Positions 27 to 12,593 of a stretch of 14,758 nucleotides of DNA are shown piece by piece (positions within the stretch are counted from its first letter, which is position 1; every line of letters starts with the position of its first letter). The stretch is taken from NCBI GenBank assembly GCA_903913345.1, contig CAIWLA010000240.1, positions 1 to 14,758 of the forward strand. Reading direction: 5' to 3'. Under the pieces are notes generated by a model. It was not told where the DNA came from. It did no database searches and saw nothing but the letters and a program-made list of their open reading frames with translations. Both the position numbers and the translations under genes were made by a program. The DNA comes from an uncultured Magnetococcales bacterium. GTDB lineage: Bacteria > Pseudomonadota > Magnetococcia > Magnetococcales > Magnetaquicoccaceae.

Positions 27-2192
27 CTACTGCAACGTCGCGAACATGCGGCTGTTGTTCCGGTCCACTTCCAGGAGAATGCTTTGTTGGGGGCCAATGG
101 CGTTGATCACCTGATCCAGGGCACCCGCCGAGGGGACTGGCTGGTTGTTGATGGCCACCACCACATCCCCCACCTGAATCCCCGCCGTCTCAGCAGGGGT
201 ACCCGGTTCCACATCCGCCACCATCGCCCCGAATTTGTTCAGCAAAGTCGAATCCTTTTGCTTCATGGCTGGCGAAATGGGCGTCATTTCCAGCCCCATC
301 CACTCAAACTCGGTCTTGAGCGGAGCCGCCGCCGGAGCCGGTCGCCCGGCACCACCCGCAGGCGGCACCGTCTGGGTCATCATGGGATCCGCTGCGGTGG
401 AAGGAACCCGCAAGGCGACCGGTTGCGCCCCAGGCGTCCCGGCAACCCCACCACCACCATTGACCACGACCGTCAGATTTTGCCGCTCCCCATCCCGCAC
501 CACGGCAAAACGGACCGCTTGTCCCACCCCCATTCCGCCCAACAGGGCAACCATCTCCTGGGGGGATTTGACCCAACGACCGTTGACCTTGAAAACAATG
601 TCGTTCGCCCGCACCCCCGCCTGCATCCCCAGGGAACCCGGCAGGACACTGCGCACCAACACCCCCTCTGGATAGGGGGAACGGTATTGCCGCGCCAAAG
701 CGGCGTCCACCGGCACCCCATCCAACCCGCCACTGCCCAGGCCGCCAGCCCCCGGCGCGACGGCCGCCGGAATGCCCACCGCCCCACCCGGCGAAAAGCT
801 GTAGTTCATCCCCCCACGACCCTGATAACCGGGACGCAATCCCCCCATGACGCCGTTCGGGCCGGTGCCCCGCCCTGCACCAGGACCGGCACCCGTCATC
901 GCGGCAGCCGTCATCGGCGGCGTCGCCAGAATGGCATGACAGCCGGTACAGGCCCCCCGATCTTCGTGGGGCATCACCGCATTGGCAACAATGGGCGGAG
1001 CCGCCACCGGCGGTGTCCCATTGGCCGCTACCGGCGTCGTCCCATTGGTTGCAGAGGGGGTCGCCAGAATCGGGTGACAGGATTCACAGGCCCCCCGGTC
1101 CTCATGGGGCATCACCGCATTGGCAACAATGGGCGGAGCCGCCACCGGTGGTGTCCCCCCCGCCGCCGCCGGAACCGCTGCCGCCGGCAAAGGCACCACC
1201 TCTTCGATAAACTCCCTGGCCCGCTCAATGGGTACGGCAAAACCGATCCCCGCAAAGGCACCCGTCGGGGTATAAATGGCCGTATTGATGCCAATCACCA
1301 TCCCCTTGCCATCCACCAACGGTCCACCGGAGTTGCCCCGATTGATGGCCGCATCGGTCTGGATCAAATCCTTGTGGACAATACCCTCAATCGTGACGGC
1401 ATTGCGCTTGCCGGAGACAATCCCCTGACTGACCGTCTGGTCCAGACCAAACGGCGAACCAATGGCAATGACAGGATCGCCTGTGCGCTCCAGCCTGCTG
1501 TTGCCCAGGGGAGCCGGTCTCAGGGGGCGCGCCGGATCCACCTTGAGCAGTGCCAACTCCCGCTTGGCATTCAAACTCACCACCTCGGCCTGATAGCGCA
1601 TGGTGGTGCCATCTTTTTCAAACACCGTGACATAGACCTCCTGGGACTGTTCCACCACATGGTGATTGGTCAGGATATACCCATCAGAGGTCACGATAAT
1701 TCCGGACCCCACGCTCTCGAAGGCCGCTCCCGTGAAGGGTTGGGCGAAGCGCAAACCGGTATCCGGGGTCGCCGGAGAGGGCGGAACCGCCGGAGCCATC
1801 GCCCCCGCCTGGGCCGTGGGTGCCGCACCCCCCGCCGCACCCGCTGCCGTGCGGGTGGCACTGACATTGACCACACTGGGCATGAGCCGACGGGCAATCC
1901 ACCCGAACCCCCCCTTGGGCACCGCCGACACCGCCGCCACGGCCTGCCCCGTTGGGGTTGGCGATCCCGCCCCCCACCAGGCCGCCGGGACACTCTGGGG
2001 GGCCAATGGCACCCCACCCCCGGCCGTCAACAGCGGCGCATCCCCCGTCGCGGTGGCACCCAGCCCAACCCCTTTCAGGTAATACTGGGTGTACCAGTAA
2101 CTGCCGACCAGAACGAACAGGGCGACAATACCGATTAAATACAAGTACTTGCGGAGATCTTTGCCGCAAAAGAGCAACTCTTTAGGACTCAT
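27..2192 (-). CDS. mamE: MamE, magnetosome HtrA-type serine protease with two magnetochrome motifs and two PDZ domains
   Basis: MamE is a magnetosome-membrane protease needed in known magnetotactic bacteria for protein sorting and magnetite growth. The 721-residue product has one N-terminal membrane anchor (about 17-38), a low-complexity Gly/Ala/Pro linker, a trypsin-like domain (about 95-332), two CxxCH heme-binding motifs (C369-H373 and C415-H419), and two PDZ domains (about 495-578 and 626-720). His178 (TNHHVV) and Ser288 (GNSGG) are visible. The third triad position, in NAKRELALL, is Glu212 where HtrA proteases have Asp. The two heme modules are a near-exact 46-residue duplication. MamE is normally about 730 residues with two CxxCH motifs, so length and layout fit. 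The start is ATG, with only a weak GGA ribosome site. It is the last complete gene of the leftward magnetosome operon, 30 bp after mamI. Confidence 0.93.
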   Translation of the reverse strand: MSPKELLFCGKDLRKYLYLIGIVALFVLVGSYWYTQYYLKGVGLGATATGDAPLLTAGGGVPLAPQSVPAAWWGAGSPTPTGQAVAAVSAVPKGGFGWIARRLMPSVVNVSATRTAAGAAGGAAPTAQAGAMAPAVPPSPATPDTGLRFAQPFTGAAFESVGSGIIVTSDGYILTNHHVVEQSQEVYVTVFEKDGTTMRYQAEVVSLNAKRELALLKVDPARPLRPAPLGNSRLERTGDPVIAIGSPFGLDQTVSQGIVSGKRNAVTIEGIVHKDLIQTDAAINRGNSGGPLVDGKGMVIGINTAIYTPTGAFAGIGFAVPIERAREFIEEVVPLPAAAVPAAAGGTPPVAAPPIVANAVMPHEDRGACESCHPILATPSATNGTTPVAANGTPPVAAPPIVANAVMPHEDRGACTGCHAILATPPMTAAAMTGAGPGAGRGTGPNGVMGGLRPGYQGRGGMNYSFSPGGAVGIPAAVAPGAGGLGSGGLDGVPVDAALARQYRSPYPEGVLVRSVLPGSLGMQAGVRANDIVFKVNGRWVKSPQEMVALLGGMGVGQAVRFAVVRDGERQNLTVVVNGGGGVAGTPGAQPVALRVPSTAADPMMTQTVPPAGGAGRPAPAAAPLKTEFEWMGLEMTPISPAMKQKDSTLLNKFGAMVADVEPGTPAETAGIQVGDVVVAINNQPVPSAGALDQVINAIGPQQSILLEVDRNNSRMFATLQ
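951..1157 (-). repeat. Tandem duplication of the magnetochrome module inside mamE
   Basis: Two 69-bp segments (951-1019 and 1089-1157) match at all but 4 positions and lie 138 bp apart, equal to 46 codons. Similarity continues more weakly across the rest of the unit. Each copy encodes a Pro/Ala stretch followed by MPHEDRGAC and the CxxCH motif. The mismatches are scattered single bases, which suggests a fairly recent in-frame duplication that is still being kept in register. Confidence 0.9.
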
Positions 2193-2222
2193 TCTGATCC
2201 ACTCTCGCCCGATACAACGCGA

Positions 2223-2474
2223 TTACAGGTGCTGCGTGATATCCTGTTTCAGGGCATCCCCGGCCACATCATGCAACTCGTCCGCAGCCAGAACCGCATC
2301 CACCTCGTTATTTTCCCTCAGTTTGGTGATGCCCGCCCCCAACGCCACCGGACCGATCAAGATCAGCAACAGTGGCACCACGCCGCGCAACACCTCCACC
2401 ACCGACCACCACCAGGTAGAGAGCCCCCACAACCCCAGTGCAATGGCCACCAACCCGAACACAATACTTGCCAT
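2223..2474 (-). CDS. mamI: MamI, small magnetosome membrane protein
   Basis: In Magnetospirillum, MamI is a small two-helix protein essential for forming the magnetosome membrane. This 83-residue product starts MASIVFGLVAIALGLWG. It has the family's WWWSV motif between the helices (about 3-18 and 29-47), followed by a hydrophilic, acidic tail rich in Asp, Glu and Ala (about 52-83). The frame is open 8 codons further upstream, but the ATG at 2474 has a strong ribosome site (CAGGAGAG) at good spacing and matches the usual MamI N-terminus, so I chose it. It lies between mamH (48 bp) and mamE (30 bp). The order mamH-mamI-mamE is the conserved core order of mamAB-type operons. The tail is somewhat longer than in the roughly 70-residue Magnetospirillum proteins. 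Confidence 0.9.
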   Translation of the reverse strand: MASIVFGLVAIALGLWGLSTWWWSVVEVLRGVVPLLLILIGPVALGAGITKLRENNEVDAVLAADELHDVAGDALKQDITQHL

Positions 2475-2482
2475 GACATTCT

Positions 2483-2490
2483 CTCTCCTG
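2483..2490 (-). promoter_or_regulatory. Ribosome binding site of mamI
   Basis: The minus strand reads CAGGAGAG 8 nt before the ATG at 2474. This strong Shine-Dalgarno sequence favours that start over an in-frame start 24 bp upstream, which would lie on the far side of the site. Confidence 0.75.
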
Positions 2491-2522
2491 AGAAACATGC
2501 AATAAAAACAATCACTCTCCGT

Positions 2523-3818
2523 TCAAGACCCGCTCATTGAGACGGAAGGACTCGGCTTTGCCCTAAGGATAAACAAACCATAGAACATAATGATAAAATT
2601 GGCAACACCTGTAAACACAAAAGGGGCACTTGGCCCCAGCCAGTCAAACAGCAACCCCCCGACCTGCAGGAAAAAGATGATCCCCAGGCAACCCACCGTA
2701 TTGAAGACCCCCAACACCGAACCACGCATGGCCAGCGGGGCGAGATCCAGGGCCACCACCTGGGGTGCCAGCAGGCAACCGGCCTGCCCCAATCCCACCA
2801 GAAAGGCGGGCAGAAAGACCCAACCACCCAGGGGATTGACAATCAACCCCATACCAGCAAAACCCGCACCAGAGAGGGCCAGACCCAGCACCATGGCCGG
2901 CACCCGACCCAGACGCACGATCAGCTCCCCCCAGATATTGATCGTCAGCAACACGATCAGCCCGACAAAACCGATCACCATGCCGGCCCGGGCCGCCGCC
3001 TCGGCACTATCCATACCCAGAATATCGGCAAAATAGACCGCCCAGGTCATCAGAAACAGGCCAATGATGACCATATCGTTGCGGGAAGTAAAGGCTGAGA
3101 AAAAGCTGAGGCGCAACGCTTCCTCCCGTTTGACCATCTGGAGGATTGCCTGAAAGGGAATCCGGCCGGTCGCCACCCGTGGGGCGACATCGACCAAAAA
3201 CCGGCGCGCCACCCATCCCCCCGCAAAGGCGATACCGGACATCAACAACATGGCCACCACCACACCCGATTGCCGGGGAATCTGCATCAGGATCGTATAG
3301 ACCAGGGTGGCACCAAAGGCCATCATGAACCCCGCCTTGGCCAGCAGACGCGGTCGCAGACGGTGGGCCTCCTGGGAGTCGTGGGCGATGGAGCCATCCC
3401 CATCGGAAAAATCCCCCGCCAGGGCCGCAATCTGCGGCCAAACCGCCGTGGTACCCAACGACATGGTGGAACGCAACAGATAGACCAGCGTCAAACCACC
3501 CGCCCCCGTCAGTATCCCCAATTCCAGGCTGAACGGCAACAACAACGCAGACACCCCGGACAATAAAAACCCATAATACACCACGGGAATACGTCCCTTC
3601 CGGTCGGACAGATAGCCCAGATAGCCCACCGACAGCAGATCCACCAGCTCGGTGATCACCTGAATGTTGGCGTTGACAAAACCAGCATTGTCCCGTGCCA
3701 GACCCAGGACATGGCGCAAATACAACGGTTGCAGGGCCAGAGCCAGGGTCATGAAAATCATGGCGACCGCCGCCAGCAGATACAAGGCGTTGTGATGTCG
3801 CGTTTCGACCTGTTTCAC
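2523..3818 (-). CDS. mamH: MamH, magnetosome major facilitator superfamily transporter
   Basis: MamH is a major facilitator transporter of the magnetosome membrane, thought from mutant work in Magnetospirillum to help move iron into the vesicle. The 431-residue product has about 12 hydrophobic segments spread over its length. The superfamily signature in the loop between helices 2 and 3 is GYLGYLSDRKGRIPV (about 65-79). Its length is close to the roughly 428 residues typical of MamH. The start is GTG, overlapping the mmsF stop in a GTGA junction, with GGCGGA 6 nt upstream, so it is probably translationally coupled to mmsF. MamZ has a similar transporter domain, but it also carries a ferric-reductase-like domain that is absent here. 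Placement directly before mamI and mamE supports MamH. Confidence 0.9.
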   Translation of the reverse strand: MKQVETRHHNALYLLAAVAMIFMTLALALQPLYLRHVLGLARDNAGFVNANIQVITELVDLLSVGYLGYLSDRKGRIPVVYYGFLLSGVSALLLPFSLELGILTGAGGLTLVYLLRSTMSLGTTAVWPQIAALAGDFSDGDGSIAHDSQEAHRLRPRLLAKAGFMMAFGATLVYTILMQIPRQSGVVVAMLLMSGIAFAGGWVARRFLVDVAPRVATGRIPFQAILQMVKREEALRLSFFSAFTSRNDMVIIGLFLMTWAVYFADILGMDSAEAAARAGMVIGFVGLIVLLTINIWGELIVRLGRVPAMVLGLALSGAGFAGMGLIVNPLGGWVFLPAFLVGLGQAGCLLAPQVVALDLAPLAMRGSVLGVFNTVGCLGIIFFLQVGGLLFDWLGPSAPFVFTGVANFIIMFYGLFILRAKPSPSVSMSGS

Positions 3819-4138
3819 AATTTTTCCGCCAAAATGGCGATCATCGGTAACCGCCAGTTGCGGTTCAGGATGACCGAGACGATGCCAATCGTGCTGAAAA
3901 TGCCGATCACCCCCATGGAAAAGGTCAGAAAAAAGCCGCCAATCTCACCCAAAGCCAGGGCAAAGATGGAGACCAGCATCCACAACCACAAAATCAGCCC
4001 CTGTCGGGCATGAAAACGGACAAAACCGTTGTGGTCGCCAAACACCAAAGGGGCCAGACACAACAGGCCCAGATAACTCATCGCGGCCAGGAGGCGCGTC
4101 TTGCGCGATTCCGGCAACTGCAACACATAATCCACCAT
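3815..4138 (-). CDS. mmsF: MmsF/MamF-family magnetosome membrane protein
   Basis: MmsF and MamF are paralogous small magnetosome membrane proteins of the Tic20-like/DUF4870 fold that control magnetite crystal size and maturation. The 107-residue product begins MVDYVLQLPESRK and has three hydrophobic helices (about 17-32, 46-66 and 68-90). The family signature FHARQGLILWLW (about 42-53) follows the first helix, and the protein ends in an RNWRLPMI-type tail. In-frame ATGs at 4144 and 4153 are possible starts. I chose 4138 because GGA lies 5 nt upstream and the N-terminus fits the family. The gene follows the Mms6-like gene by 66 bp and overlaps mamH by 4 bp. MmsF is preferred over MamF only because of the mms6-like neighbour; similarity alone cannot separate them here. 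Confidence 0.82.
   Translation of the reverse strand: MVDYVLQLPESRKTRLLAAMSYLGLLCLAPLVFGDHNGFVRFHARQGLILWLWMLVSIFALALGEIGGFFLTFSMGVIGIFSTIGIVSVILNRNWRLPMIAILAEKL
3825..3830 (-). promoter_or_regulatory. Ribosome binding site of mamH (GTG start)
   Basis: The minus strand reads GGCGGA 6 nt before a GTG codon that overlaps the mmsF stop codon. The site lies inside the last codons of mmsF and supports this non-ATG start. Confidence 0.6.
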
Positions 4139-4204
4139 GCCCATCCACACCATTGATTCCGAAGAGAGTGAGAGAGATTTCCTGAAAGCAGGCCAACAAA
4201 ACAA

Positions 4205-4621
4205 TCAAAGTGCCTCTTGTCCCCTCTGGGCCGACGACCCTTCCCCCCCGTCACCGGAACCCTTCCGCCACCCCACTGTCCCGCCCCGATAGAGATAGTT
4301 GCAGACCCCCACCCCCACGGCGAGGGTCACCCCGATCAGCAGGATCTGGCTCCAGGCCCCCAGCCCCAGTGTCAGACTCAACCCTTTGGTCACCCCCCCT
4401 CCCGCACTCTTGACCACCACGGCCGCCCCACCGGAGGAGGATCCCAGGGCCAGAGAGTTCATGGCCTGGCCAATGGAGTTCACGGCCTGACCCACCACGC
4501 CCTGGCTGGTGATGGTGGTCACGCCGACCGCTGGCACCGCACTGCCCTGTGCCACCAGACTCTTGACCAACCCAGCAACCTCCAACTCACCCGCCGACAA
4601 CAACCCTTCGGTTATGTGCAT
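4205..4621 (-). CDS. mms6: Mms6/MamD-like magnetosome protein with Leu-Gly-rich segment
   Basis: Mms6 and MamD (Mms7) are tightly bound to magnetite crystals and shape crystal growth. The 138-residue product has an Ala/Gly/Val/Ser-rich N-terminal region, then a Leu-Gly run ending LGLGAW (about 81-90). A hydrophobic helix (about 91-111) follows, then a short hydrophilic tail. The order LG-repeat, AW, helix is the hallmark of the Mms6/MamD group. The tail (about 112-138) has only three acidic residues, whereas the iron-binding tail of classical Mms6 is strongly acidic. A TTG at 4630 could extend the frame, but it sits directly against the ribosome site GGGGGAGA, so the ATG at 4621 is chosen. 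This is the first gene of the leftward operon. MamD, or a separate small LG-protein, remains possible. Confidence 0.65.
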   Translation of the reverse strand: MHITEGLLSAGELEVAGLVKSLVAQGSAVPAVGVTTITSQGVVGQAVNSIGQAMNSLALGSSSGGAAVVVKSAGGGVTKGLSLTLGLGAWSQILLIGVTLAVGVGVCNYLYRGGTVGWRKGSGDGGEGSSAQRGQEAL

Positions 4622-4630
4622 GGTTGACAA

Positions 4631-4638: not shown

Positions 4639-4698
4639 AGATACCGGCATCCTGCTGAAGTGGACTCTTTCAGAAAAGGCACTACCCCAAGGATCGGT

Positions 4699-4727
4699 AG
4701 TTAGCCTATATTTTGGTCTCCTGTCAA
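4699..4727 (-). promoter_or_regulatory. Probable promoter of the magnetosome operon
   Basis: The minus strand has a perfect -35 hexamer TTGACA (4727 down to 4722), followed after 17-18 nt by a weak -10 region around CTAACTA. The spacer is A/T-rich in its centre (AAAATATA). The site is about 80-100 bp upstream of the mms6-like start. The -35 match is direct; the -10 box is poor, so activation by a regulator or use of another sigma factor is possible. Confidence 0.4.
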
Positions 4728-4730
4728 GCA

Positions 4731-4747
4731 AACAAATTCACTTTGTT
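4731..4747. promoter_or_regulatory. Inverted repeat in the divergent control region
   Basis: AACAAA and TTTGTT form a perfect 6-bp dyad around a 5-nt centre (TTCAC). It lies 30 bp before the parA start and directly next to the -35 of the opposite promoter. It could be an operator shared by both operons, but a 6-bp dyad can also occur by chance. Confidence 0.35.
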
Positions 4748-4776: not shown

Positions 4777-5643
4777 ATGCACACCATTGCCCTCTACAAC
4801 AACAAAGGCGGTGTCGGAAAATCGACGTTGACCCTGTTCATGGCCGATTTTCTCGCCTCCCTGACGGTGGCGGGACGACTGCTCCGGGTTCTGGTGATCG
4901 ATCTGGATGCCCAGGGGTCGAGCAGCACCGCCCTCCTGGGGGACGAAAAGGGACGGCAGGCCAGGGCCGCCGACCTCAGCATCGGCCATCTGGCCTTGCA
5001 ACTGGCCGAAGGAGGCCGACCGGCACTGGAGCCGTTTTTGCTGCTTCGCCCCCGCAGTCGCAGCGGACATCCCCCGTTGCCCGCCATCACGGTCCTCCTC
5101 CCGGAAAGGGAGAGCATTTTCAATTTTGATGCCAATCCATTGCAATCCTTGACCCTCCTCTCCCACACCCTCAAGCCGCTCCTGGAACAAATTTTTGACA
5201 TTGTGTTGTTGGACCTGCCCGGCAATCTGGACGAACGCCACCTGCTGGCGATCAATGGCCTGGTGATGAGCGATTCCATCGTCATCCCGATGGAACCCAC
5301 CCGACTCGCCATCCACGCCCTTCCGGAAACCCTGCGCATGATCCGCTATGCCCAGGGGAAAAACCGACGGGGAACCCCCACCCTCCTGGGCATTGTCCTC
5401 AATCGCACCGACCGGCGCAGTCGGCAGTTCCATCTGCATGTACCTGAAATGGTGCAATTTCTCGAACAAACCGGCACCCCCTGCTTTGCCAATTGTCTCC
5501 CCAACGCCCCCGAACTGGCCAATGCCACCGACGACACCCTGGCCTTCACCTCCCTCAAGGATCGCTATGGCGGTTATTACCCCCATGTCAAAAAAGTGGT
5601 CAAGGAACTCTTTGATCGCTGGCAACAGGCCCCATTGGGATAA
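4777..5643 (+). CDS. Orphan ParA/MinD-family ATPase next to the magnetosome operon
   Basis: ParA-type ATPases position cargo such as plasmids, chemoreceptors and microcompartments by ATP-dependent dimerisation. The 288-residue product shows the deviant Walker A box NNKGGVGKST (8-17) with signature Lys10 and catalytic-loop Lys15. It also has the A' box VIDLDAQGSSS (about 40-50) and a Walker B segment DIVLLDLPGN (141-150). The segment IPMEPTRLAI (about 170-179) matches the usual family position after Walker B. There is no N-terminal helix-turn-helix, so it resembles small cargo-positioning ParAs rather than plasmid ParA repressors. No ParB-like partner or centromere-like repeat array is visible in the window. 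It is divergent from the mms6-like gene and 114 bp before a MotA-like gene on the same strand. Its role in magnetosome placement or in the downstream complex is inference from position. Confidence 0.85.
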   Translation: MHTIALYNNKGGVGKSTLTLFMADFLASLTVAGRLLRVLVIDLDAQGSSSTALLGDEKGRQARAADLSIGHLALQLAEGGRPALEPFLLLRPRSRSGHPPLPAITVLLPERESIFNFDANPLQSLTLLSHTLKPLLEQIFDIVLLDLPGNLDERHLLAINGLVMSDSIVIPMEPTRLAIHALPETLRMIRYAQGKNRRGTPTLLGIVLNRTDRRSRQFHLHVPEMVQFLEQTGTPCFANCLPNAPELANATDDTLAFTSLKDRYGGYYPHVKKVVKELFDRWQQAPLG

Positions 5644-5757: not shown

Positions 5758-6864
5758 ATGCTTGACTGGATATTTCATCTGCTGAATCATCCCTGGGTTC
5801 CCTGGAGTGGCTCCGGTCTCATTGCCGCCTGGGGGCTGGGAGAGTGGTTGGTGGTGCAACAGCGTTGTCTGATCCCCATTCGGCAACGACTGACCCATGA
5901 CTGTCAGAGTCTGGACCGGGGAACCACCCCATCGTTATCCATCATCGGTCAATCGGTGGTCTCACCCACCGATTATACCGTGCTGCGCCCACGACTGACC
6001 CTGGAAAAGGTGCTCGGAAAAGGGTGGGATGCCTATTATTTACAAACGGTTCCCTATCGGTTTTTGGGGATGGGACTCTTTTTCACCCTGATCGGACTGG
6101 CGGCGGCCCTCTTTTTTGTGATCCAGGAGCTGCATGCCGATACCCTGGCGGGGGCACGCCAGGCGTTGGATGGATTGCTGCTCTCGGCCATGCTGAAATT
6201 TCTCTCTTCCATCAGCGGCCTGTGTACCGCATCCCTCTTTTCCTGGGGGATCAAACGGCAGCGCGGTCGGTTGGAACGACAGCTGGAGGGACTCTGTCAG
6301 CGGGTGGATGAAGGGATCGCGCGCCACGAGAAAACCGTGTGGCAACCCCCCTCCCCCCTCATGACATCCCCGCCACAGATGGCCGACCCGCTCTCCGTCA
6401 CCGATGTGGCGGCGGCAACGGACCATCGGGAGACAGCGGTGACGGAGACCGTGGCCGATCTCACCCCCTTTTGCCAGACCGAGGTGGAAAAATACCTGGA
6501 CAAAACCACGGAAACGCCGGACACTGATACCGAAAAGCCGGACGAAAAACCGACCGTGGAGACCATGCCAGAACCGATAGCCATGCCCGTTCCGACGGCC
6601 ATGCCAGATCGGGTCACCCGGCCGGATCCGACGACCATGCTGGATTCGACAGCCATGCCGAATCCAGCGATCGTACCCGTTCCGATGGCCACCCCGGCTC
6701 CGACGGCCACCCCGGCTCCGATGGCGCGTGGTCCCGCCTTTGCACGATTGGCGGGAGAATTTTTACAGGCTCGGCAACAGCGGAAAGAGGTTTCGATGCC
6801 ACGACGCAGCCAGGCCAGCGACCGCAATCCCCCCTCTGTCACCTCGGTCCAACAGGCAGAATGA
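5758..6864 (+). CDS. MotA/TolQ/ExbB-like channel subunit with long repetitive Pro-rich tail
   Basis: Members of this family form ion channels that power envelope-spanning machines (MotA, TolQ, ExbB, ZorA). The 368-residue product has an N-terminal hydrophobic segment (about 15-34), a cytoplasmic loop, and a hairpin of two helices (about 102-122 and 138-164) around the loop QELHADTLAGARQALDG. It then has the basic stretch WGIKRQRGRLERQ (about 163-175). The helix pair, the Leu-Asp-Gly-Leu entry and the Arg-rich exit are most like ZorA-type proteins; exact homology needs a profile search. Residues 195-368 form a Pro/Thr/Ala/Met-rich tail containing a nine-fold 6-residue repeat. The ATG has a GGAG ribosome site 5 nt upstream. 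The stop overlaps the next start (ATGA), so it pairs with the OmpA-domain protein as MotA does with MotB. Confidence 0.72.
   Translation: MLDWIFHLLNHPWVPWSGSGLIAAWGLGEWLVVQQRCLIPIRQRLTHDCQSLDRGTTPSLSIIGQSVVSPTDYTVLRPRLTLEKVLGKGWDAYYLQTVPYRFLGMGLFFTLIGLAAALFFVIQELHADTLAGARQALDGLLLSAMLKFLSSISGLCTASLFSWGIKRQRGRLERQLEGLCQRVDEGIARHEKTVWQPPSPLMTSPPQMADPLSVTDVAAATDHRETAVTETVADLTPFCQTEVEKYLDKTTETPDTDTEKPDEKPTVETMPEPIAMPVPTAMPDRVTRPDPTTMLDSTAMPNPAIVPVPMATPAPTATPAPMARGPAFARLAGEFLQARQQRKEVSMPRRSQASDRNPPSVTSVQQAE
6565..6726 (+). repeat. 18-bp tandem repeat in the tail of the channel subunit
   Basis: About nine degenerate 18-bp units encode a six-residue repeat of type (M/T)P-x-P-(T/M)-A. The last two units are nearly identical (ACC CCG GCT CCG followed by ACG or ATG and GCC or GCG). 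The units vary freely except at Pro, Ala and Met/Thr, as expected for an extended, flexible cytoplasmic tail. Confidence 0.8.
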
Positions 6865-9446
6865 ACGCGATTCCCAAAAAATTTTTGCTTATCCTGATGG
6901 ATCTGGGACTGAGTCTGCTCTTCCTGGTGATCATTCTGGTCGCTGTACTGGATTTTAACAGTCGGCTGAAACACGAGGAGCAACAGGCACGGCAGGGTGG
7001 CCATGGGGTGACAACCCCCTCCATGGCGGGCAGTCTGGCCCAATTGCAAAAACAGAAAGAGTCCCTGACCTCCCAGGTGGACAAAGGCCGGGCAGAGATG
7101 CAGGAAATGTGGGAGAAAAACACGGTCCTGACGGCAGAAATCCGCAAAAAGAATGCCGAAGCACGCAAGTTGCTGGAAGACAACGTGGCCTTGTTGAGTC
7201 AGAACGCCTCCCTGTTGGCCCAACTCAACCAGGAAGAGGAGCGGAGCAAACAGTCCACCCATCGACCACCCATCCTGGAGGCCCCTCTCCCTGGAGGGGC
7301 GGAGACCGCCTCCCCGGCCGAGACACCGCAGGCCCAGGCGTTGCGTCAGGAAAATGCCGACCTGATTGCCCATCTGGCGCAGACCAATGATACGCTCCAA
7401 CGTTTGCAACAACAAAAGGCGGCCCAACCCCAGGGAACAACCGCACCGGTCGGGGGCCAACGGGGGCAACCCCTCTCCAGTGATCTGCTGGATACCCAGG
7501 CGGTGGGCGAGGCGGAAAAAAGGGATGGGACAAAATTTTGGAACTCCGTGATCTCCACCTTCCAGGAGCCAGCCAAAACCAAACCGGAATCGTCTCCTCT
7601 CGTCGAGGAGGCCACCGGGATCAAGCCGCCATCGCCCCCCCTCGTCAAAGTGGAAAAGGGGATGGTGGGAGCGGGTGCCTTGGATAAAATAACGACCGCT
7701 TTTCAGGCATTGCCCCCCGCTTCCCCGACCACACCGGGCGTGACCGCTGCCCCATCGCCAGCGGCAGCCGAGCCGACGGCGGTCCGCCATGACCAGACGA
7801 CCGCCACCCCGGCCCATTCTGCACCGTCCGCCTTGGCCGCCAAAGAGGAGGCCAAAGAGGAGGCCAAAGAGGAGGCCAAAGAGGAGGCCAAAGAGACCGG
7901 TACGGAGAAGACAGGTGAAACAGGTCTGTGGCACACGTTAATGAATACGTTCCAGAAATCGCCCAAACCCGCCCCGTCCGCCGTGGAGGTGGCGTTGCCA
8001 CCGCCACCGGCCTCCCTGCCAACACCAGCGGCAACCACCACCACACCACCCGCCCAGGCGGAAAAAACGGCGGCGGTTGCCGCACCAGAAACGACCCTGC
8101 GGAGGGATACAGCGGCAGACAAAGGCACCCGTCTGGCCACCGCACCGGAGACCAGAACGAGAAACCCCGCCACACCGGCGGCAACCATCACCACACCACC
8201 CGCCCAGGCGGAAAAAACGGCGGCTGTCATCACCACACCGAAGGAGACTCCGCAGACGGACAACACCATGGACAAGGGCAGCCATCCTGTCGCCGCACCA
8301 GGGACCAGAACGGCCACCACAGGCGGCATGACACCCGCCAAGGGTGGCTCGACCCCGGCCACCTCGGCGGTTGGCGGAGCCAAAACCGCCACGGAGACCG
8401 CTGCCCCGATCGCGCCCGTCGAAAAGGGCGTCACCGCTGCCGGCACCACCCCGATGGCCACCGAGGTGGCCAAAACGGGGCATGACACCCCCAAAGAGGG
8501 GATGTGGGAGGAGTTGCTTGCCTCTTTCCAGGGGACACATCCGGCACCCGCCCACCCGGCAGCGACCGGTTCCGGGCAACCGGTCTCCCCCGCACGGGGT
8601 GCCCCCACGACCCCCACCCCCGCCCAACCAGCAGAGACCCAGGTGGCTGCGCGCTCCCCTGCTCCTCCGGTTCCACCCACGGTGGAGTCACCTCAGTCCC
8701 CCCCTGGTCGGTCACTGCCCGCCACTGGCCCGCAAGGGTCACTGGCCACTGGAGGGGCCATCCGGCCATCCATGCCCACTCCGGTCGCACCCGCCGAGCT
8801 GGCGAAGGGGTTGCCCGCCGATCAGGCCAAGGTGGTGCTGAAATCGGCCACCGAGGGGGCACACATGGCCACTGTCTCCCTGAAAGATCGTCTCAACGCC
8901 CGTTCGCACCTGTTGCATCAGATTCAAAACGACCTGAAACAACGGCGGATTCCGGCTGAAATGGATGAGCAGAGCGGAACCCTCTATCTGCCCGGTCTCC
9001 TGGACTTCAAGAGCGATACGCTGCCATTCACGCCGGAAAAACAGCAGGGGATGCGGGAACTGGCTGCGGTCCTGGCCAAACACCTGCCCTGTTTCACCCA
9101 ACAGGCCAGCCAGAGGCCAGGATGTGCCGAATCCTCCGAGGCCAGGCTGGATACCCTGGTCATCGCCGGCAATGCCGGTTCGGCACCGGTGGGTTCCGGT
9201 GCCTTCCGCCATAACTGGGATCTGGCCAATGCCCGCGCCTTGGCCACCTTTGCCGAGTTGCTGGAGGCCCATCCCGCACTGAACAATCTGCGCAACACCC
9301 GGGAGCAGTCCCTGTTCCGTCTGGATGGATTTCTGCCCCCGGAGGGGGCCACAGAGTCCAAGGGACAACTCTCCAGACCGCTGCGTCGGGTGGAGTTGCG
9401 CTTTGTCATGGATCCCGCTGCCCACGAATCCCATCCGCCCCAATGA
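6861..9446 (+). CDS. Large single-span envelope protein with coiled coil and C-terminal OmpA-like domain (MotB/ZorB-type)
   Basis: The 861-residue product has a short N-terminus (MNAIPKKF), one membrane helix (about 9-31), and a Gln/Glu/Lys-rich coiled coil (about 36-130 and 155-187). A very long Pro/Ala/Thr-rich region follows (about 190-650), then an OmpA-like domain (about 675-852). The latter shows LYLPGLLDFKSDTLPFT (708-724), the N-x-x-L-x-x-x-R-A helix motif (NWDLANARA, 785-793) and a final strand RRVELRFVM. The layout matches MotB/ZorB stator stalks that anchor to the cell wall, but the linker is unusually long. The expected peptidoglycan-binding Asp appears replaced (IAGNAGS, 768-774). 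The linker holds four copies of a W/L...FQ motif plus other repeats. It overlaps its neighbours by 4 bp on both sides. Confidence 0.8.
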   Translation: MNAIPKKFLLILMDLGLSLLFLVIILVAVLDFNSRLKHEEQQARQGGHGVTTPSMAGSLAQLQKQKESLTSQVDKGRAEMQEMWEKNTVLTAEIRKKNAEARKLLEDNVALLSQNASLLAQLNQEEERSKQSTHRPPILEAPLPGGAETASPAETPQAQALRQENADLIAHLAQTNDTLQRLQQQKAAQPQGTTAPVGGQRGQPLSSDLLDTQAVGEAEKRDGTKFWNSVISTFQEPAKTKPESSPLVEEATGIKPPSPPLVKVEKGMVGAGALDKITTAFQALPPASPTTPGVTAAPSPAAAEPTAVRHDQTTATPAHSAPSALAAKEEAKEEAKEEAKEEAKETGTEKTGETGLWHTLMNTFQKSPKPAPSAVEVALPPPPASLPTPAATTTTPPAQAEKTAAVAAPETTLRRDTAADKGTRLATAPETRTRNPATPAATITTPPAQAEKTAAVITTPKETPQTDNTMDKGSHPVAAPGTRTATTGGMTPAKGGSTPATSAVGGAKTATETAAPIAPVEKGVTAAGTTPMATEVAKTGHDTPKEGMWEELLASFQGTHPAPAHPAATGSGQPVSPARGAPTTPTPAQPAETQVAARSPAPPVPPTVESPQSPPGRSLPATGPQGSLATGGAIRPSMPTPVAPAELAKGLPADQAKVVLKSATEGAHMATVSLKDRLNARSHLLHQIQNDLKQRRIPAEMDEQSGTLYLPGLLDFKSDTLPFTPEKQQGMRELAAVLAKHLPCFTQQASQRPGCAESSEARLDTLVIAGNAGSAPVGSGAFRHNWDLANARALATFAELLEAHPALNNLRNTREQSLFRLDGFLPPEGATESKGQLSRPLRRVELRFVMDPAAHESHPPQ
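7839..7895 (+). repeat. 12-bp tandem repeat (Lys-Glu-Glu-Ala) in the OmpA-domain protein
   Basis: Four exact copies of GCCAAAGAGGAG plus a partial fifth encode an AKEE array (about residues 327-345). The exact identity suggests active slippage, so copy number probably varies between strains. Each unit is 12 bp, so changes stay in frame. Confidence 0.9.
8022..8224 (+). repeat. Duplicated 50-residue unit in the Pro-rich linker
   Basis: Segments 8022-8074 and 8172-8224 are near-identical over 53 bp (2 mismatches) at a 150-bp offset, equal to 50 codons. Both encode P-A-A-T-x-T-T-P-P-A-Q-A-E-K-T-A-A. Weaker protein similarity continues through D-K-G and T-R-T in each unit, pointing to an in-frame duplication that has since diverged. 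Confidence 0.8.
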
Positions 9447-10882
9447 ACGCCGCCTCTGTCCCTTTTTCCCTGCGGCCCCTCGGTACGATGTGGAACAACA
9501 CCCAGAGATCCGTGACCGAGTGGATGCGCCTGGCCATGGATCAAACCGTGCGCCTCGCCGTCACTGGCCTGAACCAGAGTGGCAAGACGGTCTTTATCAC
9601 CGCCCTGGTCCATCAACTGCTCCATGCCAGACAGGACTCCGGGCTGCCCTTTTTTGATTGTGTCAGCACCAATCGCTTTGCCGGGTCCAAGGTGATGGTA
9701 CAACCCGATGTGGATGTCTCCGCCTTTCGTTACGACCAGTTCATCCGTCCTCTGACCGCCCGTCATCCCACCTGGCCGAACCGCACGGAAGAGTTGAGTG
9801 AGATTCGTCTGGCCCTCCGTTTTCAACCGACCGGACTCATCCATCGCCAGTTGTCCAACGTGGGCACCCTCTATCTGGACATTATCGACTATCCGGGGGA
9901 GTGGCTGTTGGACCTGCCCATGCTGGAACTCTCCTTCGCCACCTGGTCGGAACAGATTTTTCGCGCCTGCACCGAGGAGCCTCGCCGCACCCTCTCCTCC
10001 GAGTGGCAGGCCTACCTGCACACCCTGGATCTCTCTGCTGCAACCGATGAGGGGGTGTTGCGGCAGGCCAGCGCGTTGTATACCCAATTTTTGTTGCGCT
10101 GCAAGGCGGAACACGGTCTGACCCTGCTGCAACCGGGCCGATTTACCGTACCCGGCGAATGGAAAGAAACCCCGCTGCTCACCTTTTGCCCCCTGCCCGC
10201 CCCCACCACCGGCGACCCCGGTGGCGATACCCTCCACGGCACCATGGCGCAACGGTTTGAGGCCTACAAGGAAAAGGTGGTCCACCGGTTTTACAAAGAC
10301 CATTTTTCCCGTTTTGATCGGCAGATTGTCCTGATCGATCTGCTCAAGGCACTCAGCGGTGGCCCGGACAATTTTGCCGACACGCGGGTGGCTCTGGAAT
10401 CCATTTTGCGCAACTTCCGCTATGGATCATCGAGCGCGCTCAATCGGCTGTTTTGGCCCAAAATAGACAAACTGCTCTTTGTCGCCACCAAGGTGGACCA
10501 TGTGGCGGCCAACCAGCACAGCAACCTGGAACGACTGCTCAACCGCATTGTCAGCCAGCCCGCCAATGAGGCCATTTTTCAGGGTGTCGAGGTCAAGACC
10601 ATGGCCCTCTCCGCCCTCACCTGCACCCGGACGGTGGTACGCGACCATGACGGACGGCGTCTCTCCTTCGTGCAGGGGATTCCCAAGGGACGCAACCGGG
10701 AGATTTTGCTCTTTCCGGGGGAGATTCCCGAATCCCTGCCCCGCCCAGAGGATTGGGATGCCAACCGATTCAATTTTCTGGAATTTGAACCACCTCGACT
10801 GGTTGACCCGGAGGCAGCTCCCCTGCCCCATATCCGCATGGACCAGGCGTTGCAATTTTTACTGGGAGATAAATTGACCTGA
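9443..10882 (+). CDS. ycjX: YcjX-family (DUF463) P-loop GTPase-like protein
   Basis: YcjX is a conserved Ras-like NTPase, in Escherichia coli linked to the phage-shock (psp) envelope-stress regulon. The 479-residue product is close to the family length of about 465. It shows Walker A GLNQSGKT (42-49), the family signature DYPGEWLLDLPML (149-161) serving as the DxPG switch motif, and FDRQIVLIDLL (291-301). The G4 motif TKVD (349-352) sits in LLFVATKVDH, and the typical C-terminus ends LPHIRMDQALQFLLGDKL. All key nucleotide-binding motifs are intact, so it should be active. It overlaps the OmpA-domain gene by 4 bp and ycjF by 1 bp. There is no ribosome site in front, so translation is probably coupled. 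No pspF or pspA is seen nearby; its partners here are stator-like proteins instead. Confidence 0.92.
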   Translation: MNAASVPFSLRPLGTMWNNTQRSVTEWMRLAMDQTVRLAVTGLNQSGKTVFITALVHQLLHARQDSGLPFFDCVSTNRFAGSKVMVQPDVDVSAFRYDQFIRPLTARHPTWPNRTEELSEIRLALRFQPTGLIHRQLSNVGTLYLDIIDYPGEWLLDLPMLELSFATWSEQIFRACTEEPRRTLSSEWQAYLHTLDLSAATDEGVLRQASALYTQFLLRCKAEHGLTLLQPGRFTVPGEWKETPLLTFCPLPAPTTGDPGGDTLHGTMAQRFEAYKEKVVHRFYKDHFSRFDRQIVLIDLLKALSGGPDNFADTRVALESILRNFRYGSSSALNRLFWPKIDKLLFVATKVDHVAANQHSNLERLLNRIVSQPANEAIFQGVEVKTMALSALTCTRTVVRDHDGRRLSFVQGIPKGRNREILLFPGEIPESLPRPEDWDANRFNFLEFEPPRLVDPEAAPLPHIRMDQALQFLLGDKLT

Positions 10883-11970
10883 TGCGTGTCTCATCAACCT
10901 GGATCCCCCCTCTGGAACTGGAGGTACCACCCACTGGCATGGTACAGCCTCTGTTCCGTCCCAAACCGGTCATGCTGCCCACGGGTGATGACCTCCGGCC
11001 CCATCCGTCAAAACGGACCGAACCGCTCCTGGCTGCCCCGTCAGACGAAACCGATCCGCAGACCCCGGTCGTCGCCCGGCGCAAAACCACCAGGCGGCAT
11101 GGGCTGTTCTGGGGCCTGGTGGGCGTGACTCTGCTCTTGCTGGTCAGTCTCCTGATACGGGACACCCTCCTGTTTCTGCTTCAACAGTGGCAGACCCACC
11201 CCCTGCTCGGCGGTTTTTTTTCTCTCCTGGTTCTGGCCATGACGGGGCTGTTGCTGACATTGACCGGGCGCGAATGGATCCGGTTCCGGCGGTTGCGAAC
11301 CCTCTCCACCTTGCGCCAGGAGACCGGCCATCTGATGGACAGTCAAACCTTTGGCAGTGGTCAACGGTTGGTCAACCGCATCATCCTGCTCTATCGGGAC
11401 CGGACGGAGATGGAGCCTTCTCTGCAACAGTTTCACCGCCAGGTCAACGACTATCTGGGCGATCGGGAAATGTTGACCCTCTTTTCCACCCAGGTTCTTT
11501 CGGTGGTAGATACCCAGGCCTATCAGGTGGTGGTTCGTCATGCCTCGGCGGCGGCCGTCATGACCGCCATCAGCCCCCTGGCCTGGCTGGATACCCTCTT
11601 TTTCCTGTGGCGCAACCTGTGGATGGTACGGGAGATTGCCGAAGTCTATGGGGCACGTCCGGGGGCAACCGGTTCCCTGCTCCTTCTGCGTCAGGCGGTC
11701 CAGGGGATCATGGGGGCCGGGTTGGCCGATCTCCTGGCCAACAGTGCGGCCCACTCCATGGGGGATTCGGTGGCCGCCCTGCTCATGGCCAAGGCCGGAC
11801 AGGGGATTGCCAATGGCCTTTTCATCGCCCGGATCGGTCTGCAAACCATGCACGCCTGCCGTCCCCTCCCCTTTGGCGATGGAGAGAGACCCGGTCTGGC
11901 CCGCATCCGCCGGGCATTGCAGCAAGAGATCAAAAAGAGCCTGAACCCATCAGAACAGAAGGATTCATAA
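10882..11970 (+). CDS. ycjF: YcjF-family (DUF697, UPF0283) inner membrane protein
   Basis: YcjF is the usual partner of YcjX; its biochemical role is not settled. The 362-residue product (E. coli YcjF is about 353) has a Pro-rich basic N-terminus (1-72) and two membrane helices (about 74-92 and 108-127). A soluble helical part follows (about 130-220), then a hydrophobic DUF697 domain (about 222-330) with SPLAWLDTLFFLWRN and a Gly/Ala-rich segment that may associate with the membrane. The C-terminus is basic. It starts at a TGATG junction with ycjX, a strong sign of coupled translation, and ends 2 bp before the next gene. The conserved pair YcjX-YcjF makes the identification firm, though the cargo or substrate is unknown. 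Confidence 0.88.
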   Translation: MRVSSTWIPPLELEVPPTGMVQPLFRPKPVMLPTGDDLRPHPSKRTEPLLAAPSDETDPQTPVVARRKTTRRHGLFWGLVGVTLLLLVSLLIRDTLLFLLQQWQTHPLLGGFFSLLVLAMTGLLLTLTGREWIRFRRLRTLSTLRQETGHLMDSQTFGSGQRLVNRIILLYRDRTEMEPSLQQFHRQVNDYLGDREMLTLFSTQVLSVVDTQAYQVVVRHASAAAVMTAISPLAWLDTLFFLWRNLWMVREIAEVYGARPGATGSLLLLRQAVQGIMGAGLADLLANSAAHSMGDSVAALLMAKAGQGIANGLFIARIGLQTMHACRPLPFGDGERPGLARIRRALQQEIKKSLNPSEQKDS

Positions 11971-11972
11971 AC

Positions 11973-12593
11973 ATGCTACCTTTTATCTATGCCGGTGTGG
12001 TTTCGACGCTTGGCGTCATCCTGGGCAAGCGGTTGGCCGCCGCCCACCAGCGATCGACCGGGGGCCTCCCCCGGCAGACCTCTGCCAGTGTCCGCCTTCT
12101 GGCCCATCATGTCCTGGAGGAGACCAACCAGGTACTGGCCACGGAAGAGGTTCCCATGGACAACCGGTTTGGCAACAAGCCGTTGAGCAGCGAACTGGAA
12201 TTCAGCCAGACGGCCGCCATCGCACTGGAGTTGGGAGAGAACAATCGGGTGACGACCGGCTCCAAAACCACCCTGTGGCGTCTGATGGAGAACCGGGCGG
12301 AGTTGGAATTGGGCAAAAGCCTGGGCATCGAGGTGGGCAGTCAGATCAGTCGGCGGGTCAAATTGCGCTTTGCCACCGATCCCGGTCAGTTTGTCCGTTA
12401 CCGGGTGGTATGGCAACAACAGAGTCAACGGGGGATTTTGGAACTCCAGGCGGGCCGCCATGTTTTTCAACTGCCCTACCTGGTCGCCTACGGCCTGAGC
12501 CATACGGTGGAAAGTCTGCCGGGAGAATCCATCGACAAACGGCCCAAGGCCAACCATGCGGCAGAGGAGAGCACGGAGGAAGAGGAAGAATAA
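11973..12593 (+). CDS. Unrecognised membrane-anchored protein, last gene of the operon
   Basis: I do not recognise a family for this 206-residue product. It has an N-terminal hydrophobic segment (about 3-18, MLPFIYAGVVSTLGVILG), then Lys/Arg, predicting one membrane anchor with the rest in the cytoplasm. Residues about 40-170 look like a folded, strand-rich domain with alternating charged and hydrophobic residues (for example VRYRVVWQQQ and RGILELQAGRHVF). The tail is strongly acidic (ESTEEEEE). The ATG at 11973 lies 2 bp after ycjF and has an AAGGA ribosome site 9-12 nt upstream; the frame stays open far upstream, but that part is a shadow of ycjF. The acidic tail could contact the basic C-terminus of YcjF, which is speculation. 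It is probably a third component of the YcjX-YcjF module. Confidence 0.75.
   Translation: MLPFIYAGVVSTLGVILGKRLAAAHQRSTGGLPRQTSASVRLLAHHVLEETNQVLATEEVPMDNRFGNKPLSSELEFSQTAAIALELGENNRVTTGSKTTLWRLMENRAELELGKSLGIEVGSQISRRVKLRFATDPGQFVRYRVVWQQQSQRGILELQAGRHVFQLPYLVAYGLSHTVESLPGESIDKRPKANHAAEESTEEEEE

Follow-up and report, generated by a model that had tools for sequence, protein, structure and literature searches.

The window analyzed here is a contig of 14,758 bases (G000:C240), part of a 3.6-Mb metagenome-assembled genome (MAG) of the Magnetococcales. On its plus strand, positions 5758-12593 hold five tightly packed genes that encode, in order, ZorA-like and ZorB-like stator subunits, the GTPase YcjX, the membrane protein YcjF and a small membrane-anchored protein that we call X206. 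Successive genes are joined by 4-bp, 4-bp and 1-bp overlaps (ATGA at ZorA/ZorB, ATGA at ZorB/YcjX, TGATG at YcjX/YcjF) and then by a 2-bp gap (TAA-AC-ATG at YcjF/X206). A preliminary description of this DNA had given the same genes, coordinates and junctions, and both open reading frames (ORFs) and profile searches agree with its view that a stator-type pair, YcjX, YcjF and an anchored protein belong to a single operon. A gene for a ParA-type ATPase, which ends 114 bp upstream of ZorA on the same strand, was overlooked in that five-gene set. From the comparisons below, we tentatively favor the reading that the operon encodes a ZorAB-type stator module that does not serve defence and is linked to the magnetosome cluster, with ParA and YcjXF added in the window's family.

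The first gene (5758-6864, plus strand; 368 aa) had been described as MotA/TolQ-like and assigned to the MotA/TolQ/ExbB superfamily. It has no Pfam match, MotA_ExbB included, at E≤0.1, and it matches ZorA models instead: PADLOC ZorA1 at 6.7e-11 and NCBIfam ZorA at 1.2e-7, the latter with 30.4 bits, under the cut-off of 190 bits. The NCBIfam model is matched by all 16 sequences of our ZorA alignment, the window's included, and a profile of 16 ZorA relatives finds the solved ZorA 8qyk as its best match in the PDB (6.5e-12). The missing Pfam match and the three kinds of ZorA match rule out a MotA/TolQ protein. The second gene (6861-9446, plus strand; 861 aa) was expected to encode a MotB/ZorB-like protein with an OmpA domain, and it does so through a ZorB rather than a MotB model: its C-terminal 200 residues match PADLOC ZorB1 at 1.9e-38 (residues 662-857; 8844-9431, plus strand), and a profile of seven ZorB relatives matches 8vvn_B in the PDB at 3.8e-8, while the full protein alone has no Pfam OmpA match. 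The pair is therefore of ZorAB type, and by sequence the two proteins are relatives of ZorA and ZorB, not of MotA/TolQ. MotAB, TolQR and ExbBD belong in outline to the same superfamily, with transmembrane (TM) helices in the A subunit and an Asp that starts the TM helix of the B subunit; the window pair differs from them in being matched by ZorA profiles and not by MotA_ExbB. ZorAB are treated as remote stators in the accessible part of PMC12505986.

Hydropathy places ZorA TM helices near residues 104-122 and 140-158, and a third, N-terminal helix is probable. In alignments with solved structures, T110 and S151 correspond to residues 147 and 184 in the ZorA chain 8qyk, and ZorB D14 (codon 6900-6902, plus strand) corresponds to residue 26 in 8qyd_F, a ZorB chain, by a weak match (0.066); all three aligned ion-path residues are intact in the window pair. 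The conserved core of Zorya has a Ser/Thr polar ring surrounding the ZorB Asp, according to the available portion of PMC11890865. Among the operon ZorA proteins, T110 is kept in 16 of 16 and position 151 is Ser in 13 and Thr in three, and where the ZorB TM helix was seen it carries Asp in 14 of 15 proteins and Glu in one. With these residues, the operon pair would be able to conduct ions.

Beyond its N-terminal TM helix with Asp14, ZorB consists of a coiled coil, a long Pro/Ala/Thr-rich linker and the ZorB1-type, putatively periplasmic OmpA-like domain, in which Cys744 and Cys755 are invariant in a seven-sequence alignment. The peptidoglycan site of OmpA usually has an Asp-bearing G-x-T-D motif; in the ZorB domain this motif is not kept and Arg792 is, and peptidoglycan binding is putative. 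The linker carries repeats that resemble W-x-x-L-x-x-x-F-Q, such as WNSVISTFQ, WHTLMNTFQ and WEELLASFQ, at residues 227, 357 and 549, with a variant at 274 (window 7539-8531); similar peptides are readable in the ZorB of G001 and G003 (here and below, genomes carry G numbers, G000 being the window's, and loci carry L numbers). The ZorA tail is short, with 19% Pro and 17% Thr in residues 191-330, and ends in the motif GPAFARLAGEFLQARQQRK (6736-6792, plus strand). Its Leu and Phe, L331 and F335, are invariant and line up with the sister genus in the 16-sequence alignment, though not in a second alignment. The motif may serve in docking.

The ParA-type ATPase (4777-5643, plus strand; 288 aa) has the Walker A motif KGGVGKST at position 10, matches Pfam AAA_31 at 1.7e-20 and has Soj/ParA-type proteins as its nearest solved relatives by sequence. 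YcjX (9443-10882, plus strand; 479 aa) and YcjF (10882-11970, plus strand; 362 aa) are what they had been named. YcjX matches Pfam DUF463 at 1.1e-169 and the solved relative 6nz5 at 1.7e-104, with the GTPase motifs GLNQSGKT (P-loop), DYPG and TKVD intact; YcjF, a membrane protein by hydropathy, matches DUF697 at 6e-39 and TIGR01620 at 4e-71 (240.3 bits, cut-off 160). The two are adjacent and clear members of the YcjX-YcjF pair, which in E. coli is tied to envelope stress. X206 (11973-12593, plus strand; 206 aa) combines an N-terminal TM helix with a beta domain. It has no match in Pfam or PDB sequence searches, and its AlphaFold2 model is predicted by a fold search to resemble aerolysin-like beta-sandwiches.

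On the other side of ParA, the minus strand carries mamE, mamI, mamH and small MamF-like and MamD-like genes (27-4630). MamI (88.9 bits, cut-off 80) and MamH (603.5 bits, cut-off 300) lie above the NCBIfam cut-offs, and MamE (428.9 bits) and MamD (20.7 bits) lie under theirs; MamE has two magnetochrome stretches, and the MamF label is our own assignment for a gene with no NCBIfam match. A conserved block of about 48 bp (4697-4744, no strand assigned) occupies the divergent intergenic region between mamD and ParA, or between mamD and ZorA in G003, and reads GTAGTTAGCCT ... CCTGTCAAG ... AAATTCA.TTT in G000-G003, with the remaining columns varying. It is largely kept even though ZorA itself has diverged, with identities to the window protein of only 41% in G002 and 51% in G003. 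The block may be a promoter and could act on mamD, ParA or both; a promoter scan of this intergenic region returned no promoter-like match that passed. Downstream of X206, metallophosphatase and YciB/IspA genes follow on the minus strand.

We then compared 48 Magnetococcales genomes, 18 of them from the window's family; the MAGs are incomplete, the contigs short and the fetched flanks of unequal length. YcjX is present in 34 of the 48, and 33 YcjX loci were compared, the window's included and that of G046 not among them. In the family, all 16 genomes with a detected YcjF have YcjX or YcjF directly next to ZorA or ZorB; a script identified 15 of them, and G013, where it had chosen an overlapping ORF, was added by hand. 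In the genomes outside this count, G002 and G003, the contigs end at ZorB. ZorB is present in the G010 operon, where the script had missed it, and in G017 ParA-ZorA lie on one contig and ZorB-YcjX-YcjF on another. ParA stands with the operon in 15 of the 18 genomes, being missing at that place in G003 and cut off by the contig end in G014 and G015. Elsewhere in the order, 0 of 20 YcjX/YcjF loci have an adjacent ZorAB in the fetched flanks, some on short contigs, and the window's YcjXF pair, placed inside a stator operon, is unlike them. The gene set is conserved but lineage-specific, found in one Magnetococcales family only: the recurrent synteny looked for in the preliminary description exists, in that the arrangement is not confined to the window, but it was not seen in several lineages.

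Outside the order, the ZorA profile matches 58 of 398 Pseudomonadota genomes at E≤1e-5, 47 of which are Magnetococcales, and none of the 11 ZorA-like loci outside Magnetococcales, of 13-14 kb each, holds YcjX or YcjF. YcjX occurs in 66 of 160 genomes, 37 of them outside the order; for these 37 other Pseudomonadota no MotA_ExbB lies within 10 kb of YcjX among the matches listed, the nearest of which is about 16.5 kb away (G052). Because the MotA_ExbB model misses the window's own ZorA, ZorA-profile matches were compared as well, and only G141 of the 37 has one (E≤1e-5), on a different contig from YcjX. The 11 ZorA-like loci without YcjX or YcjF and the 37 YcjX genomes without a nearby stator among the matches listed rule out the gene set as a widespread module. 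Some ZorA-like proteins have giant tails, with ORFs of 2,222 to 4,073 aa (L177 7778-19999; L116 5108-14983; L114 1-7179; L126 6431-13099), and the largest in the 398-genome search reach 4,577 aa.

X206 had been called a novel anchored protein. The N-terminal TM anchor stands, but a novelty specific to this gene set does not, as the protein is found in 45 of the 48 Magnetococcales genomes. In 37 of these 45, a mamT, S, Q, H, I or D gene stands no more than 10 kb away, a tally that leaves out MamE/O, MamF and CDF matches and uses Mam labels from small profiles made from the translated loci, with our own score thresholds. The eight genomes that do not count toward the 37 are G014, G019, G021, G024, G028, G036, G040 and G046, several of them with X206 on short contigs. 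A frequent order is mamQ-B-S-T, a 287-aa gene, X206 and genes for response regulator, STAS and Hpt proteins, and seven genomes have ZorA or ZorB no more than 1.5 kb from X206. In M. marinus MC-1 the homologue Mmc1_2245, annotated only as hypothetical, ends a mamQ-B-S-T-ZorA-ZorB run. Beyond Magnetococcales, three of the 24 loci found come from two Thiotrichales MAGs and one gammaproteobacterial MAG; a Thiotrichales contig (G399) reads mamQ-B-S-T-X206-STAS-Hpt, with ZorA-ZorB further on. X206 is not specific to the YcjXF-ZorAB set and occurs in magnetosome clusters without YcjXF.

Further copies and neighbors of X206 were seen on the way. G000, G001 and G003 have two copies each (G000:C598 and G000:C240; L134 and L061; L135 and L136); those next to mamQ, three in all, cluster at the end of a long stem, the remaining ones cluster with the window's copy, and the second copy of G003 lies on a contig without YcjXF. 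The Thiotrichales MAGs carry similar ZorA-ZorB(-ZorC) and X206-STAS-Hpt genes (L212 239-7763; L214 960-7673; L185 6047-20558), and in the gammaproteobacterial MAG (L201 3118-7168) X206 follows two actin-like genes that we read as putative MamK.

ZorAB pairs themselves occur at magnetosome clusters in two kinds. In the first, of ZorABC type, ZorC-ZorB-ZorA flank the cluster in G004, G007, G018 and G023, and ZorA is also near the cluster in G008, G009 and G013; the ZorC has EH_Signature and Hpt domains and matches PADLOC ZorC1 at 5.4e-45. EH_Signature has a match in 21 of the 48 Magnetococcales genomes and none in G000-G003. ZorA-ZorB-ZorC sets flanking magnetosome clusters can be read at L123 228-10418, L125 6124-12099, L129 7702-14633 and L147 183-6226, and those of G023 have Hpt, STAS and response-regulator genes alongside, so that a Zorya-like motor is combined with components of a phosphorelay. 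In the second kind, mamT is followed by ZorA, ZorB and X206 in five genomes of three families (G025, G026, G027, taken to be MC-1, G034 and G038), with mamT-to-ZorA gaps of 32, 22, 11, -4 and 2 bp, respectively, for ORFs taken from the first start codon. A tree of 52 ZorA cores sets ten sequences from other bacteria and the ZorABC-type proteins apart from 35 Magnetococcales sequences (Shimodaira-Hasegawa-like approximate likelihood-ratio test, SH-aLRT, 98), and the latter group holds both the mamT-linked ZorA and the operon ZorA of the window. The tree came from a quick search without bootstrap that left out the Thiotrichales ZorA, and in it, as in the ion-path comparison, the label Zorya for all ten sequences from other bacteria is our own; G224 fell short of our threshold.

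Part of this gene content has been described before under other names. In the text available from a 2019 study (PMC6783814), the magnetosome island of Ca. Magnetaquicoccus holds EH-signature, MotB and apolipoprotein-domain genes of unknown function, placed 9 kb downstream of mamT in WMHbin3, with 11 genes for hypothetical and chemotaxis proteins downstream of mamT; in HCHbin5 (G001) the cluster is flanked by another set of genes. The three genes correspond to ZorC-ZorB-ZorA, and in G013 ZorA lies about 9 kb from mamT; this ZorA belongs to the other tree group than the window's. That available text does not name ZorAB or Zorya, and YcjX, GTPase and DUF697 do not occur in its main text. The accessible parts of PMC3934378 and PMC12791574 contain neither OmpA nor MotA, the former mentioning chemotaxis, signal-transduction and hypothetical proteins, and the accessible part of PMC10470508 has nothing on these genes. 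The preliminary description knew of no system of this composition, and our literature search, whose coverage of subscription papers was small, likewise found no earlier account of ZorAB with YcjXF, of a magnetosome-Zorya link or of Mmc1_2245-2247.

The recurrence of ZorAB and X206 in mam clusters, together with a mamT-adjacent ZorA from the window's group in three families, supports a magnetosome-tied module. Tracking with magnetosome genes is borne out by X206 and related ZorAB in the clusters of other families, but not by the operon, which is beside mam genes in G000-G003 only. These four genomes lack ZorC, and their operon occupies the flank that holds ZorABC in others; as a single event in a single clade, this counts as weak evidence.

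Several observations weigh against our reading. The operons of the sister genus and of G004-G006 (G004-G017 together) lie away from mam genes within the fetched flanks, so that the mam adjacency in G000-G003 may go back to one relocation. This distance fits an explanation that we consider somewhat unlikely, an envelope-stress machine with no magnetosome tie, in which the stator exerts a Tol-Pal-like pull on the cell wall, YcjXF is the stress module and the mam neighbors are a coincidence of one relocation. The link of YcjXF to envelope stress in E. coli points the same way, as does YcjXF standing without ZorAB at the 20 other Magnetococcales loci; the papers listed for YcjX/YcjF are mostly expression and stress studies. 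Such a machine does not account for X206, the last gene in the window's clade, being in magnetosome clusters throughout the order, for the ZorA of the window's group that follows mamT, or for the conserved block that faces mamD.

Also on the opposing side, X206 is within 1.5 kb of YcjF in only four of 45 genomes (the window, found by hand, and G001, G014 and G028, found by script), and parts of the operon are lost singly: G001 has no ZorA between ParA and ZorB, the operons of G008 and G013 lack ZorB, and G004-G006 retain ZorA-ZorB-YcjF but have no DUF463 match anywhere in their genomes. A tblastn search of the gaps in G001, G004, G005, G006, G008 and G013 found no convincing remnants of the lost genes. 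Moreover, the tree separates the operon ZorA by genus: the window's genus falls in with paralogues (G000:C105, G001:C177, G002:C92), and the operon ZorA of the sister genus join G025/G026 (support 82). This takes two label changes and is compatible with one origin; the operon may have exchanged one ZorA for another, or the tree may be uncertain here. The single losses rule out the operon as one inseparable machine. They also lend something, with the split of the operon ZorA, to the view that the genes are packed together selfishly or by chance and share transcription but no machine. We regard this as quite improbable, given the overlapping genes, their conservation in all 16 family genomes despite a ZorA identity of about 23-28% between the window and the sister genus, and the fact that YcjF stays with ZorB where YcjX is gone.

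The ion path adds a further opposing point. None of the five mamT-linked ZorA proteins has a polar residue at position 151 (A, A, V, A and L in G025, G026, G027, G034 and G038), position 110 is Ser in G027, G034 and G038, and the TM start of ZorB has no acid in G025 and G026 and Glu in the other three. A motor is therefore not required by all magnetosome versions, and some magnetosome-linked pairs may be non-conducting, which would suit a scaffold. Ala at position 151 is also found in G028, G033, G041 and G047, which have no mamT link, so this erosion is not confined to mamT-linked pairs.

The sister genus bears on the architecture of the complex. Its ZorA has a longer tail than the window's, and its ZorB, as read in G007, G009, G010, G011 and G016, is a TM helix and coil with no OmpA-like domain, which G014 retains. 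With these proteins, and two genomes without ZorB in the operon, the envelope-spanning stalk first proposed is not general. Upstream of ParA-ZorA-ZorB-YcjXF, the sister genus has a second ParA-like gene and a gene of 242-244 aa (L068 8980-10428; L070 10470-12139; L072 2583-4034), which in G007 encodes a membrane coiled coil.

The window pair resembles Zorya type I ZorAB in ZorA/ZorB1 homology, in the aligned ion-path residues and in a ZorB with TM anchor and OmpA-like domain. It departs from Zorya in a short, Pro/Thr-rich ZorA tail instead of a long alpha-helical rod, in an 861-aa ZorB whose long linker bears the repeats, and in its partners ParA, YcjX, YcjF and X206. A variant anti-phage system with these four as effectors would explain why the nearest families of the pair are ZorA and ZorB, and the predicted likeness of X206 to aerolysin-like folds, a fold found in pore formers, would be in keeping with it. 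Defence by Zorya I and II needs both the cytoplasmic extension of ZorA and the peptidoglycan domain of ZorB (PMC11890865, in its available portion), whereas here the ZorA tail is short and the sister-genus ZorB was read without the OmpA-like domain. In addition, PADLOC models for ZorC, D, E, F and G match none of the six operon proteins, the operon is conserved throughout the family, X206 sits among mam genes and YcjXF stands alone elsewhere. Taken together, these make an anti-phage system quite unlikely.

Returning to a magnetosome-tied module, our model suggests that a ZorA pentamer would surround a ZorB dimer in the inner membrane, as homology predicts, and that ion flow past ZorA T110/S151 and ZorB D14 would drive the stator. 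The OmpA-like domain of ZorB would extend toward peptidoglycan, and the cytoplasmic side would consist of the short, flexible ZorA tail with its conserved end motif in place of the long Zorya rod. We hypothesize that this end motif binds a membrane platform of YcjF and X206, on which the GTPase YcjX could act as a switch, to judge from its motifs and position, and that ParA sets the position of the complex in the cell. The loss of YcjX in G004-G006 weakens the switch role and makes YcjX doubtful as the cytoplasmic effector that it had been taken for. The gene order suggests that the stator would do mechanical or organizational work at the inner membrane near magnetosomes, anchoring or positioning them against the cell wall, and not phage killing. 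A more specific version, which we think unlikely, makes ZorAB the mechanical link between magnetosome chain and cell wall and X206 an oligomeric membrane collar; an ion-powered form, with placing by ParA and switching by YcjXF, would move or tension the organelle, and an ion-dead, mamT-linked form (MC-1 family, G025, G026) would be a passive anchor. If true, this would be a repeated reuse of a motor family for an organelle.

The recurrent ZorAB and X206 genes in magnetosome clusters, intact or eroded in the ion path, are named candidate genes, and they suggest that stators of ZorAB type also exist apart from phage defence. YcjX/YcjF, a poorly understood pair, here has a defined membrane machine as its neighbor, which would allow direct questions about its function. 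That a relative of an ion motor known from virus defence is coupled here with a stress GTPase pair and with a protein of the compass cluster suggests that these motors have been put to work beyond defence against viruses.

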